Part shown: positions 10,464-54,015 of the stretch, in pieces
Layout of the letters: the number at the start of each line of letters is the position of its first letter
Position numbering within the stretch: the first letter of the stretch is position 1
Assembly (NCBI GenBank): GCA_022614805.1
Contig: JAKEHY010000032.1
Coordinates: 15,814-79,813, forward strand
Length of the DNA: 64,000 nt
Direction: 5' to 3'
Source of the DNA: Candidatus Zixiibacteriota bacterium
Lineage (GTDB): Bacteria > Zixibacteria > MSB-5A5 > DSPP01
Notes under the pieces: model-generated
Databases searched by the model: none
Seen by the model: the letters and a program-made list of their open reading frames with translations, nothing else
What the model was told of the DNA's origin: nothing
Made by a program: the position numbers and the translations under genes

Positions 10464-10496
10464 TCTCCTTCCCGCGAAGGTATATGGTTCTTGCTT

Positions 10497-10648
10497 GGGC
10501 AGGTCTCCTGGCTTGCAGCAACTCCCGGGCGCCTTCCCATCCCGAAGGACAGTGGCTTTTTGCCCGGGTCCGGCTGCTCACAGTAGCGGGGCTGCGGCGG
10601 TTTTTCACCGCCTTCCCTATTAAGCTCGACGAGCGCCGAAGCTCTGAC
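10497..10648 (-). promoter_or_regulatory. cobalamin (B12) riboswitch
   Basis: Read on the minus strand, the leader shows the class hallmarks in order: GGGAAGGCGGTG...CCGC, then GCAGCCCCGCTACTGTGA, then AAAAAGCCACTG, GATGGGAAGGC, and the B12 box AAGCCAGGAGACC. It lies between a good promoter and the TonB receptor ATG, with about 30 nt from the B12 box to the ribosome site. Cobalamin binding in this class normally blocks translation or elongation, so the operon should be turned on when B12 is scarce. Confidence 0.93.
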
Positions 10649-10654
10649 ACAGAT

Positions 10655-10683
10655 AATCTATTCCGGATGTTCATCCGTGTCAA
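10655..10683 (-). promoter_or_regulatory. promoter of the cobalamin operon
   Basis: On the minus strand TTGACA (10683-10678), a 17-bp spacer and TAGATT (10660-10655). The predicted transcript start is near 10648, at the 5' end of the riboswitch. The spacer contains a short dyad CGGATG..CATCCG, a possible extra operator. Confidence 0.6.
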
Positions 10684-10750: not shown

Positions 10751-11020
10751 ATGAGACCCAAGACGGCTCTGATTTTAATAATAGGCTTTTTGCTCTTTGG
10801 CGTTTTCTTGTGGCCCGGTCTTTATCACTATGGACACGATGCCTATATGGGTATGCCTTACCGGGTCAATCGCATTACCGGGAAAACCCAATACTTGATA
10901 AGAGGAACCTGGTTTCCGTCTGGTAAGCCGAAAAAAGATACCGAGCTATCGGCCAAAGAAAAAATGGAACAGGAATTAGAGCGTCGCCGCCTATTGCAAG
11001 AGAGAGAGGGGCAAAAATAA
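10751..11020 (+). CDS. small single-helix membrane protein, unknown
   Basis: 89 aa. ATG 10751 is preceded by AAAGGAGG (spacing about 11). One N-terminal helix (residues 4-24, ALILIIGFLLFGVFLWPGL) is followed by a Tyr-rich segment (YHYGHDAYMGMPYRVNRITG) and a highly charged C-terminal helix rich in Lys/Glu (KEKMEQELERRRLLQERE). It is transcribed divergently from the cobalamin operon. I do not recognise the family. The strong ribosome site and typical bias make it a real gene; a role with the neighbouring operon is unproven. Confidence 0.6.
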   Translation: MRPKTALILIIGFLLFGVFLWPGLYHYGHDAYMGMPYRVNRITGKTQYLIRGTWFPSGKPKKDTELSAKEKMEQELERRRLLQEREGQK

Positions 11021-11069
11021 ATCAACGAAGATTAACCTCTTTCCCCAACCAAATTAGGACACTACCAAA

Positions 11070-11122
11070 AAAAGAGGTCCCGCCCGAAAGGAGGGTCGGA
11101 CGGGACGGAAGCCCTCTTTTTT
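11070..11122. terminator. strong intrinsic terminator
   Basis: AAAAGAGG-GTCCCGCCCG loop CGGACGGGAC-...CCTCTTTTTT: a long GC stem nested in an A-tract/T-tract pair, so it can work on both strands. It ends the small membrane protein gene at 11020. Confidence 0.75.
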
Positions 11123-11363
11123 ACTGCAGTTACCTTTAACCAGCGCAACCGGAGTCCTCGGTGAAGGAGGTTGGACAGGTTGCCCGCTGAATCAATTATC
11201 AAACCCCGTGCCGAGTCATTTGCAGCGACATTATGGGTGTAAGTCGTTGCCAACCAGTTGGGGATTTTCGGAATTCAGCTTTAGAACTATTCTTGATTCG
11301 CAGAAACTGCGTTTTACGCAGGTCGATACGCAGAATTAGAGAAGAAGCTTTTTGGTTTTCACC

Positions 11364-11395
11364 CAAACAAAAAACGAGGCCGGGTGCGGCCTCGT
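11364..11395 (-). terminator. intrinsic terminator after small lipoprotein gene
   Basis: On the minus strand ACGAGGCC-GCACCC-GGCCTCGT is followed by a T-rich run, 22 bp after the stop of the lipoprotein gene. Confidence 0.78.
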
Positions 11396-11416
11396 TTTCG
11401 TTTTTCGGTGTCCGAA

Positions 11417-11593
11417 TTACTTGGTCGCACCGGAGGTGGTATCCTGCATCGTGGTGTCCGGCATCTGCGTGGTGGTATCCGGCATCGTCTGGGCGGGCTG
11501 CTCCATCGCCGGTTCCTCCTGCTTTTTGCCGCAGCCGCCCACCAAAGCCAAACAAAGCAGCGCGATCATCATAACCACAAAGAAACGCTTCAT
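11417..11593 (-). CDS. 58-aa lipoprotein with Thr/Met/Asp-rich tail
   Basis: ATG at 11593 has GGAGGTGAGC upstream. The product has a signal peptide (MKRFFVVMMIALLCLALVGG) and lipobox LVGGC (Cys21). The mature part is only about 38 residues: GKKQEEPAMEQP followed by a low-complexity repeat MPDTTTQMPDTTMQDTT. It has its own terminator, so it is a stand-alone small gene of the entericidin/small-lipoprotein kind, function unknown. It lies divergent to the tolQRAB operon, with about 200 bp between. Confidence 0.75.
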   Translation of the reverse strand: MKRFFVVMMIALLCLALVGGCGKKQEEPAMEQPAQTMPDTTTQMPDTTMQDTTSGATK

Positions 11594-11790
11594 TCTAAAA
11601 GCTCACCTCCTCGAAAAAGTTGCCTCCTGAAAACTCTTTTTCCCGTCATCCTATATTCTACCATTAAAGCAGGCGGGAAATATATGCCCCTTTGGGGTTG
11701 CGTCAAGCGGTTTTTTGTCCGAAAGCCAAAAAGTTTTTGCTTGACCTTTTGGCTCAACTTTCCATTTATAGGCTGTCGAGGAGGAAACTT

Positions 11791-12525
11791 ATGCTCTTGT
11801 TGGACAATCAAATCTGGCAGTTGGTCACCGGGGCGGATGTTTTTTCAAAAATCATCCTGGCGATTCTGGTCTTTATGTCGGTTGTCTCCTGGGGGGTGAT
11901 TGCCACCAAATGGATGCAATATCAGAAAACGCGCGAGGATTCGGAGCGGTTTTTGAACACCTTCCGCCGCCGCCGCAGCGTGGGGGAAGTTTACACCCCC
12001 CTTTCCGGTCTGCGCGGCACGTTCTTGTCCCGGATTCTGGAGCAGGGGGCCAAAGACCAGGCCGAACTTTCCCGCCGGCACGCCCACGCCAGCCCGACCG
12101 GCGGCAACCCGCATCCGAAACTGGAACTGGGCGCCAAAGCCGAAGGGTATCTGACCAAGGACGACCTGGACACCATTGCCATCACCTTGAAGCGGGTGGC
12201 GCAGGAGGAAATCGTCCGCTTGGAGAAGGGGGTTTCGTTTCTGGCGACCACCGGCAACACGGCCCCCTTTTTCGGGCTTTTGGGAACCGTCTGGGGGGTG
12301 ATGGACTCGTTTCTTTCCATCGGCATACGCGGCCAGGCGACTTTGGCCGTGGTGGCGCCCGGCATCGCCGAGGCTCTGATTGCCACCATCGTCGGGCTGG
12401 CGGCGGCCATCCCGGCAGTCATCGGGTATAACTATTGTAACAGCCGGTTGAAAACGTTTGCGGCCCAGGCCGAAGCGTTCGGGCTGGAGCTTTTAACCGC
12501 CTTCTGGAAGGAGAGCGGCAAATGA
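11791..12525 (+). CDS. tolQ: TolQ/ExbB-type proton channel subunit
   Basis: 244 aa. ATG 11791 has GAGGAGG at good spacing. Three membrane helices: near residues 12-35 (IILAILVFMSVVSWGVIATKW), about 150-175 and about 185-215 (GIAEALIATIVGLAAAIPAVIGYNY). The region 'FLATTGNTAPFFGLLGTVWGVMDSF' is the MotA/TolQ/ExbB signature. With TolR it forms the proton-motive-force motor of Tol-Pal (outer-membrane constriction at division) or of TonB. The order Q-R-A-B and the TolB neighbour favour TolQ. A possible promoter (TTGACC 11741, TTTATA 11765) lies upstream. The gene overlaps tolR by 4 bp. Confidence 0.9.
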   Translation: MLLLDNQIWQLVTGADVFSKIILAILVFMSVVSWGVIATKWMQYQKTREDSERFLNTFRRRRSVGEVYTPLSGLRGTFLSRILEQGAKDQAELSRRHAHASPTGGNPHPKLELGAKAEGYLTKDDLDTIAITLKRVAQEEIVRLEKGVSFLATTGNTAPFFGLLGTVWGVMDSFLSIGIRGQATLAVVAPGIAEALIATIVGLAAAIPAVIGYNYCNSRLKTFAAQAEAFGLELLTAFWKESGK

Positions 12526-46735: not shown

Positions 46736-46790
46736 GTAGGGGCGAATCTTTAGATTCGCCCCGGGTGAACCTAAAGGTTCACCCCTACGT
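46736..46790. repeat. double hairpin palindrome between atpH and atpA
   Basis: Two perfect hairpins in tandem: GGGGCGAATCT-TT-AGATTCGCCCC and GGGTGAACCT-AA-AGGTTCACCC, enclosed by GTAG and CTAC. It would fold as a three-way junction. Confidence 0.75.
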
Positions 46791-48375: not shown

Positions 48376-48440
48376 TTGACCCCACCCCTGCCCCTCCCCT
48401 CCCTCGACTACGCTCGGGACAAGTCAAGGGGAGGGAAAAA
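48376..48440 (+). repeat. intergenic palindrome with 22-bp motif
   Basis: 'GACCCCACCCCTGCCCCTCCCCT', the 22-bp motif (48402-48423), and 'GTCAAGGGGAGGG'. Palindromic pair CCCTCCCCT/AGGGGAGGG. It lies between atpA and atpG. Confidence 0.65.
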
Positions 48441-49392: not shown

Positions 49393-49726
49393 AATGTCTA
49401 ATGGTTCTGGAGCGGAGGCGTTGTAGTGATTGTTGTAATTGTCATGCCGAACGAAACGAGGCATCTGAGGGTGTTGTCGAGCGTTCGCTATGAACTTGTC
49501 ACCCATTGCCACACAAGGACTTTGGTAATACCGTCTTACGCCACTCTTCTGAAAGAATTTCTCCACGCTCGCAGGAAGCGTCGACTCTAAGCGGCAAGCA
49601 AATTTGAGCAGCAGTCATTGACTTATCGATAACTTTCCCGTTCCTTACCCTTGCGCATACTTTGAAGAAAGGGGAATGGATGACAGCCCCAACCAGTTCT
49701 CATTTAAAGTTTTAGCAAGGATAAAT
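49393..49726. other. gene-free stretch after atpG
   Basis: It contains a short direct repeat GCGGAGGCGTT (49377 and 49412), and a dispersed-type element TGTCATGCCGAACGAAACGA (49440-49459) running into GGCATCTGAGG. A candidate -35 TTGAC-type box at about 49618 has no convincing -10. No coding signal was seen. Confidence 0.4.
49440..49468 (+). repeat. dispersed 'TGTCATGCCGAACGAAACGA' type repeat
   Basis: This sequence matches the widely seen 'GTCATTCCGAGCGAAGCGAGG' style of intergenic repeat. A related block lies, inverted, at 52390-52437. Confidence 0.5.
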
Positions 49727-51070
49727 ATGGCCAATGTCTTGGTGGTCGATACGGATGTTTCCGAAAGAAAAATGGTTTCGGATATTCTCGCCGCCGAGGG
49801 GCACTCGGTGTTTCAGGCCGGCTCGGCCGACCAGGCCATCCAGCAGGTAGAGGAATACCAGCCCGACGTGGTTTTGACCGATTTGAAAATGCCGGAAAAA
49901 GAAGGGCTGGCCCTGGTGGAAAAACTGGCCGCCCGGCCGGAACCCTCCGAGGTGATCGTGCTGACCGCTTTCGGCTCCATCGAAACGGCAGTCAAGGCGA
50001 TGCGTCGGGGGGCCTATGACTATTTAAACAAACCGGTGGAAAAAGACGAGCTTTTGCTGGTGGTGGAACGGGCGGCGGAAAAAAGGGCCTTGCGGCAGGA
50101 GAGCCGGCTCTTGAAACAGGAACTGGCCAGAAAATCGGCCGCCGGGCTGGTGGCCCAATCGGAGGCGATGCGCAAGATTCTGGAACTGGTGGCCAAAGTG
50201 GCGGCCAGCGACGCCACCGTTCTGATTCTGGGGGAATCCGGGACCGGCAAGGAAGTGGTCGCCCGGATGATTCACCAGCAAAGCTTGCGGGGAGCCCGGC
50301 TTATGCAGGCCATCAACTGCGCCGCTTTTCCGGAAACCTTATTGGAGTCGGAACTTTTTGGTTATGAGAAGGGCACTTTCACCGGTGCCCAGAGCCGGAA
50401 GATAGGAATAATCGAAGCCGTTTCCGGCAGCACCCTTTTTTTGGACGAAGTGGCGGATATGTCCCTGGGAACCCAGGCCAAGTTGTTGCGGGTGTTGCAG
50501 GAAAAAGAAATCCGGCGATTGGGCGGTGTTACCAACATTCCGGTTGACATCCGCCTGATAGCGGCCACCAATAAGAATTTAGAAGAGGCGATGAGTGCGG
50601 GCGCTTTCCGGCAGGATTTGTTTTACCGCTTGAGCGTGATTCCAATAAAAATCCCCCCGCTGCGGGAACGCAGGGAAGATATTCCGGCCCTGTTGCGGCA
50701 TTTCATAACCCAATCAGGCCGGCCCAAGATTTTGGAACCCCGGGCGCTTGCGGTGCTGACCGAATACGATTGGCCGGGGAACGTGCGGGAACTGCAGTCG
50801 ATGATAGAACGGATGGCCGTCTTGTCCGGCGGCGACAGAATCCGGGTGGAAGACCTCCCTTTGGATTTGACCGAAAGAAAAAAAACGCCGGGAGCTATTG
50901 TCTGGGAACTTCCGGAGGAAGGCATTAATCTTGAAAAATGGGAAAAAGATCTTCTATCACAGGCTCTGGAAAAATCGGGTGGAGTGATGGCCGCGGCCGC
51001 CCGGCTTTTGGGCATCTCCTCCCGGACTTTTCAGTATAGGGCCAATAAGTTCGGCTTAAAAGGCCGTTAG
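49727..51070 (+). CDS. NtrC-family sigma-54-dependent response regulator
   Basis: 447 aa from ATG 49727 (AAGGA upstream; ATG 49676 would add 17 residues). Receiver domain (1-115): acidic pair 'VVDTD' and phospho-acceptor Asp52 in 'LTDLKMP'. AAA+ domain (about 145-385): Walker A 'GESGTGKE' (169-176), GAFTGA loop as 'GTFTGA' (216-221), Walker B 'LFLDEVADM', arginine finger 'RQDLFYRLSV'. C-terminal Fis-type HTH (about 415-447, 'AARLLGISSRTFQYRANKFGL'). It activates sigma-54 promoters. No partner kinase is adjacent; the kinase at the window start is unlikely to be. A sigma-54 promoter lies 200 bp downstream. Confidence 0.95.
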   Translation: MANVLVVDTDVSERKMVSDILAAEGHSVFQAGSADQAIQQVEEYQPDVVLTDLKMPEKEGLALVEKLAARPEPSEVIVLTAFGSIETAVKAMRRGAYDYLNKPVEKDELLLVVERAAEKRALRQESRLLKQELARKSAAGLVAQSEAMRKILELVAKVAASDATVLILGESGTGKEVVARMIHQQSLRGARLMQAINCAAFPETLLESELFGYEKGTFTGAQSRKIGIIEAVSGSTLFLDEVADMSLGTQAKLLRVLQEKEIRRLGGVTNIPVDIRLIAATNKNLEEAMSAGAFRQDLFYRLSVIPIKIPPLRERREDIPALLRHFITQSGRPKILEPRALAVLTEYDWPGNVRELQSMIERMAVLSGGDRIRVEDLPLDLTERKKTPGAIVWELPEEGINLEKWEKDLLSQALEKSGGVMAAAARLLGISSRTFQYRANKFGLKGR

Positions 51071-51138
51071 ACGACCGGCGGAGATTTTTCCGGCCGTTCC
51101 AAACCCGGTCATTTCAGAATTTCTACTTAGAGACGTTT

Positions 51139-51158
51139 TGGTGCAGTTGATGCCACCA
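51139..51158. promoter_or_regulatory. possible enhancer (UAS) inverted repeat
   Basis: TGGTG ... CACCA with a TGC/GC-rich dyad (TGGTGCAGTTGATGCCACCA), about 115-135 bp upstream of the sigma-54 promoter, where NtrC-type activators normally bind. Imperfect; by eye only. Confidence 0.25.
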
Positions 51159-51184
51159 TTTGAGTCCAAACCCTTTTTTTAAAT

Positions 51185-51211
51185 GCCGCCGACAAAACCT
51201 GCGGCTTTTTT
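51185..51211 (+). terminator. intrinsic terminator after the NtrC-type gene
   Basis: Stem GCCGC/GCGGC with an 11-base loop, then TTTTTT. It isolates the regulator from the small genes downstream. Confidence 0.6.
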
Positions 51212-51271
51212 ATTTCAACGTAACCGCTGGTAGGTAAGGAGTTGCATTTAAATTTCGACGGAACCGTTTTA

Positions 51272-51286
51272 CGGCACGCCGCTTGC
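51272..51286 (+). promoter_or_regulatory. sigma-54 (RpoN) promoter
   Basis: CGGCACG-CCGC-TTGCC: matches the -24/-12 consensus TGGCACG-N4-TTGC at all but the first base, with GG (51273-51274) and GC (51285-51286) exactly 10 bases apart. Transcription should start near 51297, 45 bp before the first small gene. It lies immediately downstream of an NtrC-family gene. Confidence 0.7.
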
Positions 51287-51341
51287 CCCCCTTTATGGTT
51301 GTGGTTGGATAAAAACCCCCAACCCAGGATAGGAGATTCAA

Positions 51342-51662
51342 ATGACGGAAACAAAAGATTCCAAAGGTTTGGAAACCCCCGTAGTGAAGCGGGAAACGTT
51401 CGCCAGCTTGAATGACATCAAAGAGCCGGGCATTTACGTGGACACGCGGTCGCCCCGTTTCTTCCGGGCAAGCGCGGAAGGTACAACGGTCGCCGGCACC
51501 AGCCCCAAGATTCGGGTCAACGAGGATGGGCTTGCTATGGGAGCCAGCATCACCAATAACGGTTCGGACTTCACGGTAGCCAAGGTTTCGACCGATCCGA
51601 TGTTGGCGAAATCACAGGTACAGCAACTCTGCAAGGATTTAAGCCTTCCCCTTCCAGTATAA
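51342..51662 (+). CDS. small conserved-motif protein A, unknown family
   Basis: 106 aa, ATAGGAG before the ATG at good spacing. Core motif 'FASLNDIKEPGIYVDTRSPRFFRASAEG', middle 'KIRVNEDGLAMGASITNNGSDFTVAKVSTDP' and C-terminal 'SQVQQLCKDLSLPLPV'. No signal peptide or membrane helix; predicted soluble and cytoplasmic. It is clearly homologous to the next small protein over its full length except for a 13-residue insertion. It is expressed from the sigma-54 promoter upstream. The family is not recognised; the function is unknown. Confidence 0.75.
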   Translation: MTETKDSKGLETPVVKRETFASLNDIKEPGIYVDTRSPRFFRASAEGTTVAGTSPKIRVNEDGLAMGASITNNGSDFTVAKVSTDPMLAKSQVQQLCKDLSLPLPV

Positions 51663-51742
51663 TCTGGAAAGGCGCAGTTGTAGTGATAAGATTTGAACGG
51701 AAACGCAAAACCCTAACAAGATGAAGATTTAAGGAGATTCAA

Positions 51743-52015
51743 ATGAGAGAGACCAAATCTACACAGCACTTGAACAACCCGATGGACAAACGAGTGACGT
51801 TCGTCAGCTGGAACGACATCAGCGAGCCAGGCGTGTACGTGGACACTCAATACCCGCGTTTTTTCCGGGTCACGGAAGAGGGAATCACCCCCGGAGCCAG
51901 TCCCAATATTCACGGGTCGGAATTTACGGTGGCCAGGATTTCCTCTGACCCGCTGCTGTTGAAGGCGCGCGTGCAGCAAATCTGCGCCGACAGCAACCTT
52001 CCCGTTCCAGAATAA
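51743..52015 (+). CDS. small conserved-motif protein B, paralogue of A
   Basis: 90 aa, AAGGAGATTCAA before the ATG, the same ribosome-site block as protein A (AGGAGATTCAAATG). Shared motifs: 'DISEPGVYVDTQYPRFFRVTEEG', 'SEFTVARISSDP' and 'RVQQICADSNLPVPE'. One Cys is conserved in the C-terminal helix (QLCKD / QICAD). It ends before a strong terminator, so the unit A-B is bicistronic. Soluble by composition. The paralogy suggests a tandem duplication under the same control. Confidence 0.75.
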   Translation: MRETKSTQHLNNPMDKRVTFVSWNDISEPGVYVDTQYPRFFRVTEEGITPGASPNIHGSEFTVARISSDPLLLKARVQQICADSNLPVPE

Positions 52016-52043
52016 GCTATTACCAAAGGGAGGCGCTTGGAAA

Positions 52044-52069
52044 CCCCGCCGCAAGGCGGGGTTTTTTTT
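52044..52069 (+). terminator. strong intrinsic terminator of the small-gene unit
   Basis: CCCCGCC-GCAA-GGCGGGG (52044-52061) followed by eight T. It closes the sigma-54 unit. Confidence 0.85.
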
Positions 52070-52122
52070 ACATTTCATTACGGATGATGCTTTGGACGTT
52101 GGGGACCATTTTGAGCCTCCCC

Positions 52123-52437
52123 TTATCGTCTCTTACCGAAGATTACGTAAAGAATAATGATTCCAACCAGAATTGCGGCTCCCGTTTGGCTATAAGTTCC
52201 CTTTTTCGTCAGGATGGTCATCATACTCAGTATGTAGAAGAGGAAAACGGCCGTCCAGAATGCACATCCCCAAAGCTTTTCGGGGACGTTAAATTTTGTC
52301 ATATCGCAATATAGTTCCCAAGTATCCAGCCAGCCTTTTAAATTTCTTTCCAATCCAACAAGCGATTGTCGCCCTTTGACTTTAATCGCGAAGTGCGCTC
52401 CATCCCTCGACCCAGATTCCTCGCTACCCCTCGACAA
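52123..52437 (-). CDS. possible small membrane protein, start in a repeat
   Basis: Up to 104 aa. The credible part is the C-terminal 60 residues: 'KFNVPEKLWGCAFWTAVFLFYILSMMTILTKKGTYSQTGAAILVGIIILYVIFGKRR', two membrane helices. The N-terminal frame (SRGSEESGSRDGA) runs through a dispersed repeat and no ribosome site is seen, so the true start is probably an internal ATG (MTKFNV, near 52285). It is convergent with the sigma-54 small genes. Confidence 0.4.
   Translation of the reverse strand: MSRGSEESGSRDGAHFAIKVKGRQSLVGLERNLKGWLDTWELYCDMTKFNVPEKLWGCAFWTAVFLFYILSMMTILTKKGTYSQTGAAILVGIIILYVIFGKRR
52390..52437. repeat. dispersed intergenic repeat, inverted relative to 49440
   Basis: The minus strand reads TTGTCGAGGGGTAGCGAGGA followed by ATCTGGGTCGAGGGATGGAG, a variant of the 'GTCATTGCGAGG...GCGAGGAATCT' style repeat at 49440. 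It overlaps the doubtful start of the minus-strand membrane protein. Confidence 0.45.
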
Positions 52438-52454
52438 CGCTCTCTCGGATTAAC

Positions 52455-52470
52455 AAAACAAGTTTGTTTT
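52455..52470. promoter_or_regulatory. palindrome upstream of atpD, possible operator or hairpin
   Basis: AAAACAA-GT-TTGTTTT, perfect 7-bp dyad, 75 bp before the atpD ATG. AT-rich; could be an operator or an element of an unidentified promoter. Confidence 0.3.
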
Positions 52471-52476
52471 ATTTGA

Positions 52477-54015
<1,539 letters not shown>

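Follow-up and report, generated by a model that had tools for sequence, protein, structure and literature searches.

The interval between atpG and atpD in this Candidatus Zixiibacteriota genome contains an NtrC-type gene, two paralogous small genes, a strong terminator and an uncertain minus-strand ORF, and this raises the question of what such a set of genes does in an ATP synthase cluster, how it might be switched on and whether it has any bearing on the genes that flank it. The window analysed here is a stretch of 64,000 nucleotides (G000:C33:15814-79813) from a 38-contig, 2.55-Mb assembly. The initial annotation had described a compact, self-contained response unit, and each of the parts that it listed was recovered between atpG and atpD with its coordinates (Table 1). 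We read this insert, with a probability of about 60%, as a lineage-specific accessory unit in the atpG-atpD gap, in which an NtrC-type activator with a pseudo-receiver would act on a sigma-54 promoter to express tandem small genes. The reading builds on what can be taken directly from the DNA, namely the genes with their duplication and terminator, a rare promoter match, RpoN in the genome, the insertion relative to the sister species, the protein family and the loss of the DD2 acid of the receiver. Its layout is that of a familiar kind of regulatory unit, and it is the small proteins that are new. A literature search, confined to open-licence papers, returned no description of a unit like this within an atp operon.

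Table 1. Features of the atpG-atpD interval, with a conserved RNA-like element from elsewhere in the genome (window coordinates unless a contig or locus is given).
Feature	Position	Strand	Basis or remark
atpG	48541-49392		gene left of insert
Insert between atpG and atpD	49393..52503	n/a	edges approximate, the right one to within about 10 bp
NtrC-family sigma-54 activator, 447 aa (REC, AAA+, Fis-type HTH)	49727..51070	+	Pfam, solved relatives, 92-locus residue comparison
Weak terminator-like hairpin and T run after activator	about 51185..51211	+	-8.7 kcal/mol, z -2.05
Sigma-54 -24/-12 promoter CGGCACGCCGCTTGCC	51272..51287	+	consensus core GGCACG-N4-TTGC
Small protein 1, 106 aa; 15-16 aa inserted compared with the family	51342..51662	+	ORF, family alignment
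Small protein 2, 90 aa, nearest to family consensus	51743..52015	+	ORF, class-wide family by profile
Strong intrinsic terminator at the end of the small-gene unit	52039..52066	+	12-bp stem, -21.5 kcal/mol, z -4.1
Uncertain ORF inside insert, 104 aa	52123-52437	-	
Sigma-70-like promoter for atpD, TTTACA-17-TATATT, across right insert edge	52486..52514	+	consensus match only
atpD	start 52546		gene right of insert
RNA-like element	G000:C25:18533-18699 (L201, L210:1507-1582); L211-L224 in relatives		

The first gene of the unit encodes a receiver (Response_reg, 2e-26), a sigma-54 activation domain (Sigma54_activat, 5e-68), an AAA lid and a Fis-type helix-turn-helix (HTH_8, 8e-12) according to Pfam, and the AAA+ domain carries a loop of the GAFTGA type, in agreement with the NtrC-family assignment previously made from the loop and the helix-turn-helix. 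Its closest solved relatives are Aquifex NtrC1 entries (4l4u). The REC-AAA+-Fis HTH architecture, the Walker motifs and the GxFTGA loop are shared with the NtrC-family bacterial enhancer-binding proteins (Aquifex NtrC1, NtrX, ZraR, AtoC), and identity reaches up to 48% for many relatives, whereas the window protein differs from the family by a Thr in place of the DD2 acid and by its GTFTGA loop, one substitution away from GAFTGA and found in this protein only among the 92 loci compared, the window's own gene included. The best full-length identity among the sister species and nine other relatives is 48%; in the genome collection the best relatives are from Nitrospira, at about 47%, with one partial match reaching 50%. 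No ortholog of the activator was found in the sister species, and the best 25 NCBIfam models for it all scored below their cut-offs.

The receiver of this activator shows D8, T9, D52, T80 and K102 at the positions that define a phosphorylation-activated response regulator (DD, D, T, K), so that four of the five residues are present and the second D is Thr9. The motif reads DTD where relatives have DDE, DDD, EDE and similar, and position 9 (DD2) is Thr in the window protein only, being acidic in the other aligned relatives (same 92 loci). DD2 is a direct metal ligand, the absence of even one of the five conserved catalytic residues is enough for a receiver to be classed as a pseudo-receiver, and DD2 is non-acidic in about 80% of pseudo-receivers (PMC12632262). 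Since its DD2 acid is replaced by Thr9, the activator receiver counts as a pseudo-receiver under that definition, and signalling through phospho-Asp52 is doubtful because one metal-binding acid is missing. Like other atypical receivers, the one encoded in the window has lost one of these five residues, but it keeps Asp52, Thr80 and Lys102 and has an extra Asp at position 10, so that residual phosphorylation is possible; Asp10, beside Thr9, might partly compensate for the lost acid. The insert contains no kinase gene, and together with the pseudo-receiver this leaves the proposed signal received by Asp52 without support. Activation probably does not proceed by the ordinary Mg-dependent phosphorylation of Asp52; the trigger could instead be another partner or ligand, or a constitutive ATPase activity limited by protein level.

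Activators that adjoin a sigma-54 promoter commonly act on it, and an activator with an adjacent sigma-54 target is an already known kind of arrangement. The most likely target of this activator is the sigma-54 promoter some 200 bp beyond the activator gene. The main competing explanation accepts the promoter and assigns its control to a different activator, such as one that receives its phosphate from a distant kinase, with the neighbouring protein being degenerate or directed to other targets. The absence of DD2 and the loop seen in no other of the loci compared are consistent with this, and other activators are available, considering that besides this one the genome encodes four or more NtrC-type proteins at E <= 1e-100 (50 candidates at a first look). 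We nevertheless consider it unlikely, given that the ATPase and HTH parts of the neighbour are all intact, that activators so placed commonly serve the adjacent promoter, and that the whole unit is missing as one block from the sister species. We infer that this activator, and not another NtrC-type protein of the genome, works at the promoter.

The promoter core GGCACGCCGCTTGC (GGCACG-N4-TTGC, positions 51273-51286) lies 55 nt upstream of the ATG of small gene 1, matches the consensus at 10/10 core positions and shows the GG-N10-GC arrangement within TGGCACG-N4-TTGCW, which bears out the near-consensus -24/-12 promoter reported about 200 bp past the activator gene. The exact core occurs once in the window and at 4 sites in the whole 2.55-Mb genome, against 9 for a backwards control pattern, with none of the four (0/4) inside an obvious gene. 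Using a matrix derived from the consensus, with frequencies that we set after the published one, we found that 5/13 sites of >=13 bits in 497 kb of this genome lay outside long ORFs, compared with 0/19 for the reversed matrix and with about 9% expected from the share of bases outside such ORFs. The site also outscored 300/300 shuffles of the 250 bp upstream of small gene 1, and RpoN is encoded in this genome. As a positive control for the matrix, two type-IV-pilin genes (L197:7381, L197:8849; G000:C21) have sigma-54 sites 19-23 nt upstream (12.7 and 11.7 bits) that adjoin a PilR-like activator gene at C21:3959-5302, a textbook arrangement. The promoter call rests on more than one motif match because core rarity, matrix enrichment, the pilin control and RpoN all bear on it; a motif of this kind also precedes the class-wide RNA described below. 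Reliable recognition of sigma-54 promoters is possible in this clade, which has received little study. In the pilin pair as in the window unit, a -24/-12 promoter with small genes comes after an activator gene, whereas the unit in the window targets an undescribed small-protein family, lacks a sensor kinase and sits inside an operon of unrelated function. The contig has another perfect core some 6 kb ahead of the window, at L007:9418 (G000:C33:9419); a csrA-like gene lies downstream of it, and a fliW-like gene follows farther on.

Sixteen other upstream regions, from gene 2 and 15 other family members, showed no significant sigma-54 site, and on this count the promoter could be a rare coincidence, unlikely as that is. 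Transcription of the small genes would then come from read-through or from a promoter that escaped recognition, which presumably holds for their relatives elsewhere too. The terminator previously placed after the activator is compatible with such read-through, since a hairpin with a T run is indeed present there and is weak; the terminator scan missed it because of its long loop. This second alternative is improbable, considering that a 10/10 core at the right distance and on the right strand is one of only 4 in 2.55 Mb and was matched in 0/300 shuffles, and that no sigma-70-like promoter was found on the + strand before the small genes. The idea that the small family is always under sigma-54 control was likewise rejected, the upstream regions of its other members having no significant site. 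The pairing of activator and small genes is local, because the other family members tested lack the sigma-54 site and no activator in a relative genome exceeds 48% identity.

The compactness of the unit, with activator, adjacent promoter, paralogous small genes and terminator in succession, is supported, while its self-contained character is inference only, the search for an activator operator (inverted repeats at 51060-51350 occur only at chance level) and the search for a sigma-70-type promoter of the activator both having come out empty. The sigma-70-like scan gave 2 sites, against 2.2 expected in shuffles. As no + strand promoter of this type precedes the activator gene, the protein may plausibly arise through transcription running on from atpG; in this way, or from an unseen promoter, it would be made at a low level. 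Under the reading favoured here, the sigma-54 promoter would drive a short operon of two tandem-duplicated, probably cytosolic small proteins made together, and the strong terminator that was expected behind them, and is present, would isolate atpD from the unit.

The two small proteins are 58% identical, as befits the paralogues they had been taken for, and their genes share a 138-nt repeat that includes the ribosome-binding site. A third copy in this genome (C21, L006:8051-8326) lies downstream of a PAS-histidine kinase-receiver hybrid. The homologue search proposed with the initial annotation was run with profiles and recovered relatives in 14/132 genomes of the phylum, which equals the class for the genomes covered, with the conserved core F..I.EPG.Y....G.L.R.P.E....GHSP.I...E..V.KIS.DP....KAR..C...DL.V.F. 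The members scanned had no match in Pfam, NCBIfam, PHROGs or PDB, the structure models, of low confidence (pLDDT 71-73), gave no fold match, and no relative was found in viral contigs (single-protein search), phage records or plasmid records. The family is thus real, class-wide, undescribed in the libraries searched and sometimes found beside regulators: its gene neighbours vary by genome, with PAS-LuxR regulators adjacent in three (L175, L176, L179). Because the small proteins look soluble, are duplicated and sometimes sit beside regulators, we tentatively favour signalling partners over enzymes, at somewhat less than even odds; the homologues that adjoin PAS-LuxR regulators in three genomes and the hybrid kinase in this one suggest, more specifically, an accessory role in signalling.

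Family genes in the sister species (G001) occupy about 2.5 kb where the matching stretch in G000:C25 measures about 340 bp, which indicates that family loci come and go. In contig C70 of that species (L014:7979-10356, 10754-12512) two family genes flank a TPR-lipoprotein-like gene, and phage-like genes, coding for a virion structural protein and for members of families of unknown function, immediately precede them.

The same sister species, with an atpG protein 93% identical (about 84% in DNA), provides the empty site for the insert: its atpG stop and conserved atpD leader are separated by 57 bp, and the flanking atpG and atpD sequences can be aligned at 84-86% DNA identity, whereas the 3.1 kb between them have no counterpart. 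The 3.1 kb is for this reason a lineage-specific insertion, and the description of the unit as dropped between the two genes was right. It comes from one assembled genome, and misassembly is formally possible. In most other relatives checked atpD follows close behind atpG (the stretches of L153 and L157 do not show it), and the gene-order comparison found family members elsewhere away from atp genes, so that the suggested tie to F-ATPase function is unsupported. The notion that the family belongs with ATP synthase was rejected on the same two grounds, the empty sister site and the position of the homologues. As far as the evidence goes, the atp location looks like an accident of one lineage, with the ATP-synthase genes being the landing site and not the target. 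This young, well-bounded insertion with an empty sister site illustrates how a housekeeping operon can take in a sigma-54 unit that is already complete. It is very unlikely that an activator with a non-phosphorylated receiver is expressed by atp operon read-through in such a way that the sigma-54 small-protein output follows atp expression, which would make a new energy-linked circuit. Least probable of all, regulation or modification of the F-ATPase by the unit has its location and a possible read-through of the activator from atpG in its favour, against the absence of the unit at atpG-atpD in the sister species and most other relatives checked and the position of family members away from atp genes elsewhere.

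Other features of the insert concern its edges and its right-hand part. The -10 TATATT of the promoter-like site before atpD is kept in the sister species and the -35 TTTACA is supplied by the insert, so the right edge may give atpD a promoter of its own. A 28-nt inverted repeat (75%) is found near both ends (49467-49494 and 52417-52444), and a 25-nt direct repeat (80%) has one copy ahead of the activator gene and the other behind small gene 1 (49406-49430 and 51663-51687); both are possible traces of the arrival of the insert. No further copies of its left flank turned up, either in this genome or in the two closest relatives. The C-terminal part of the minus-strand ORF resembles a small two-helix membrane protein, the ORF having no family match above cut-off, and within the insert Rfam gave nothing but noise below threshold.

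The other perfect sigma-54 cores of the genome led to an RNA-like element of about 70 nt, GGGAGUGGUG...CUGG-N4-CCAG-CCACCUGACGUUAGAGUCGGGCAUCCCCCCUC-CACCACUCCC, which is a more striking by-product than the inserted unit itself. Its almost invariant core was matched in at least 83/129 class genomes searched, no Rfam family reached threshold for it, and a GGYA-N6-TTGC sigma-54 site is located 39-64 nt upstream in 14/14 loci with enough sequence. The element has a stem that closes it, two hairpins and a stretch rich in C, CAUCCCCCCUC, which could pair with Shine-Dalgarno sequences. It is directly testable and deserves its own look.

Elsewhere in the window, short intergenic sequences at 46736-46784, 48386-48440 and 49441-49490 resemble interspersed repeats, the first of them occurring twice more at 92% in one stretch of the sister species, and a cobalamin riboswitch (118 bits) lies at 10481-10655 on the minus strand.
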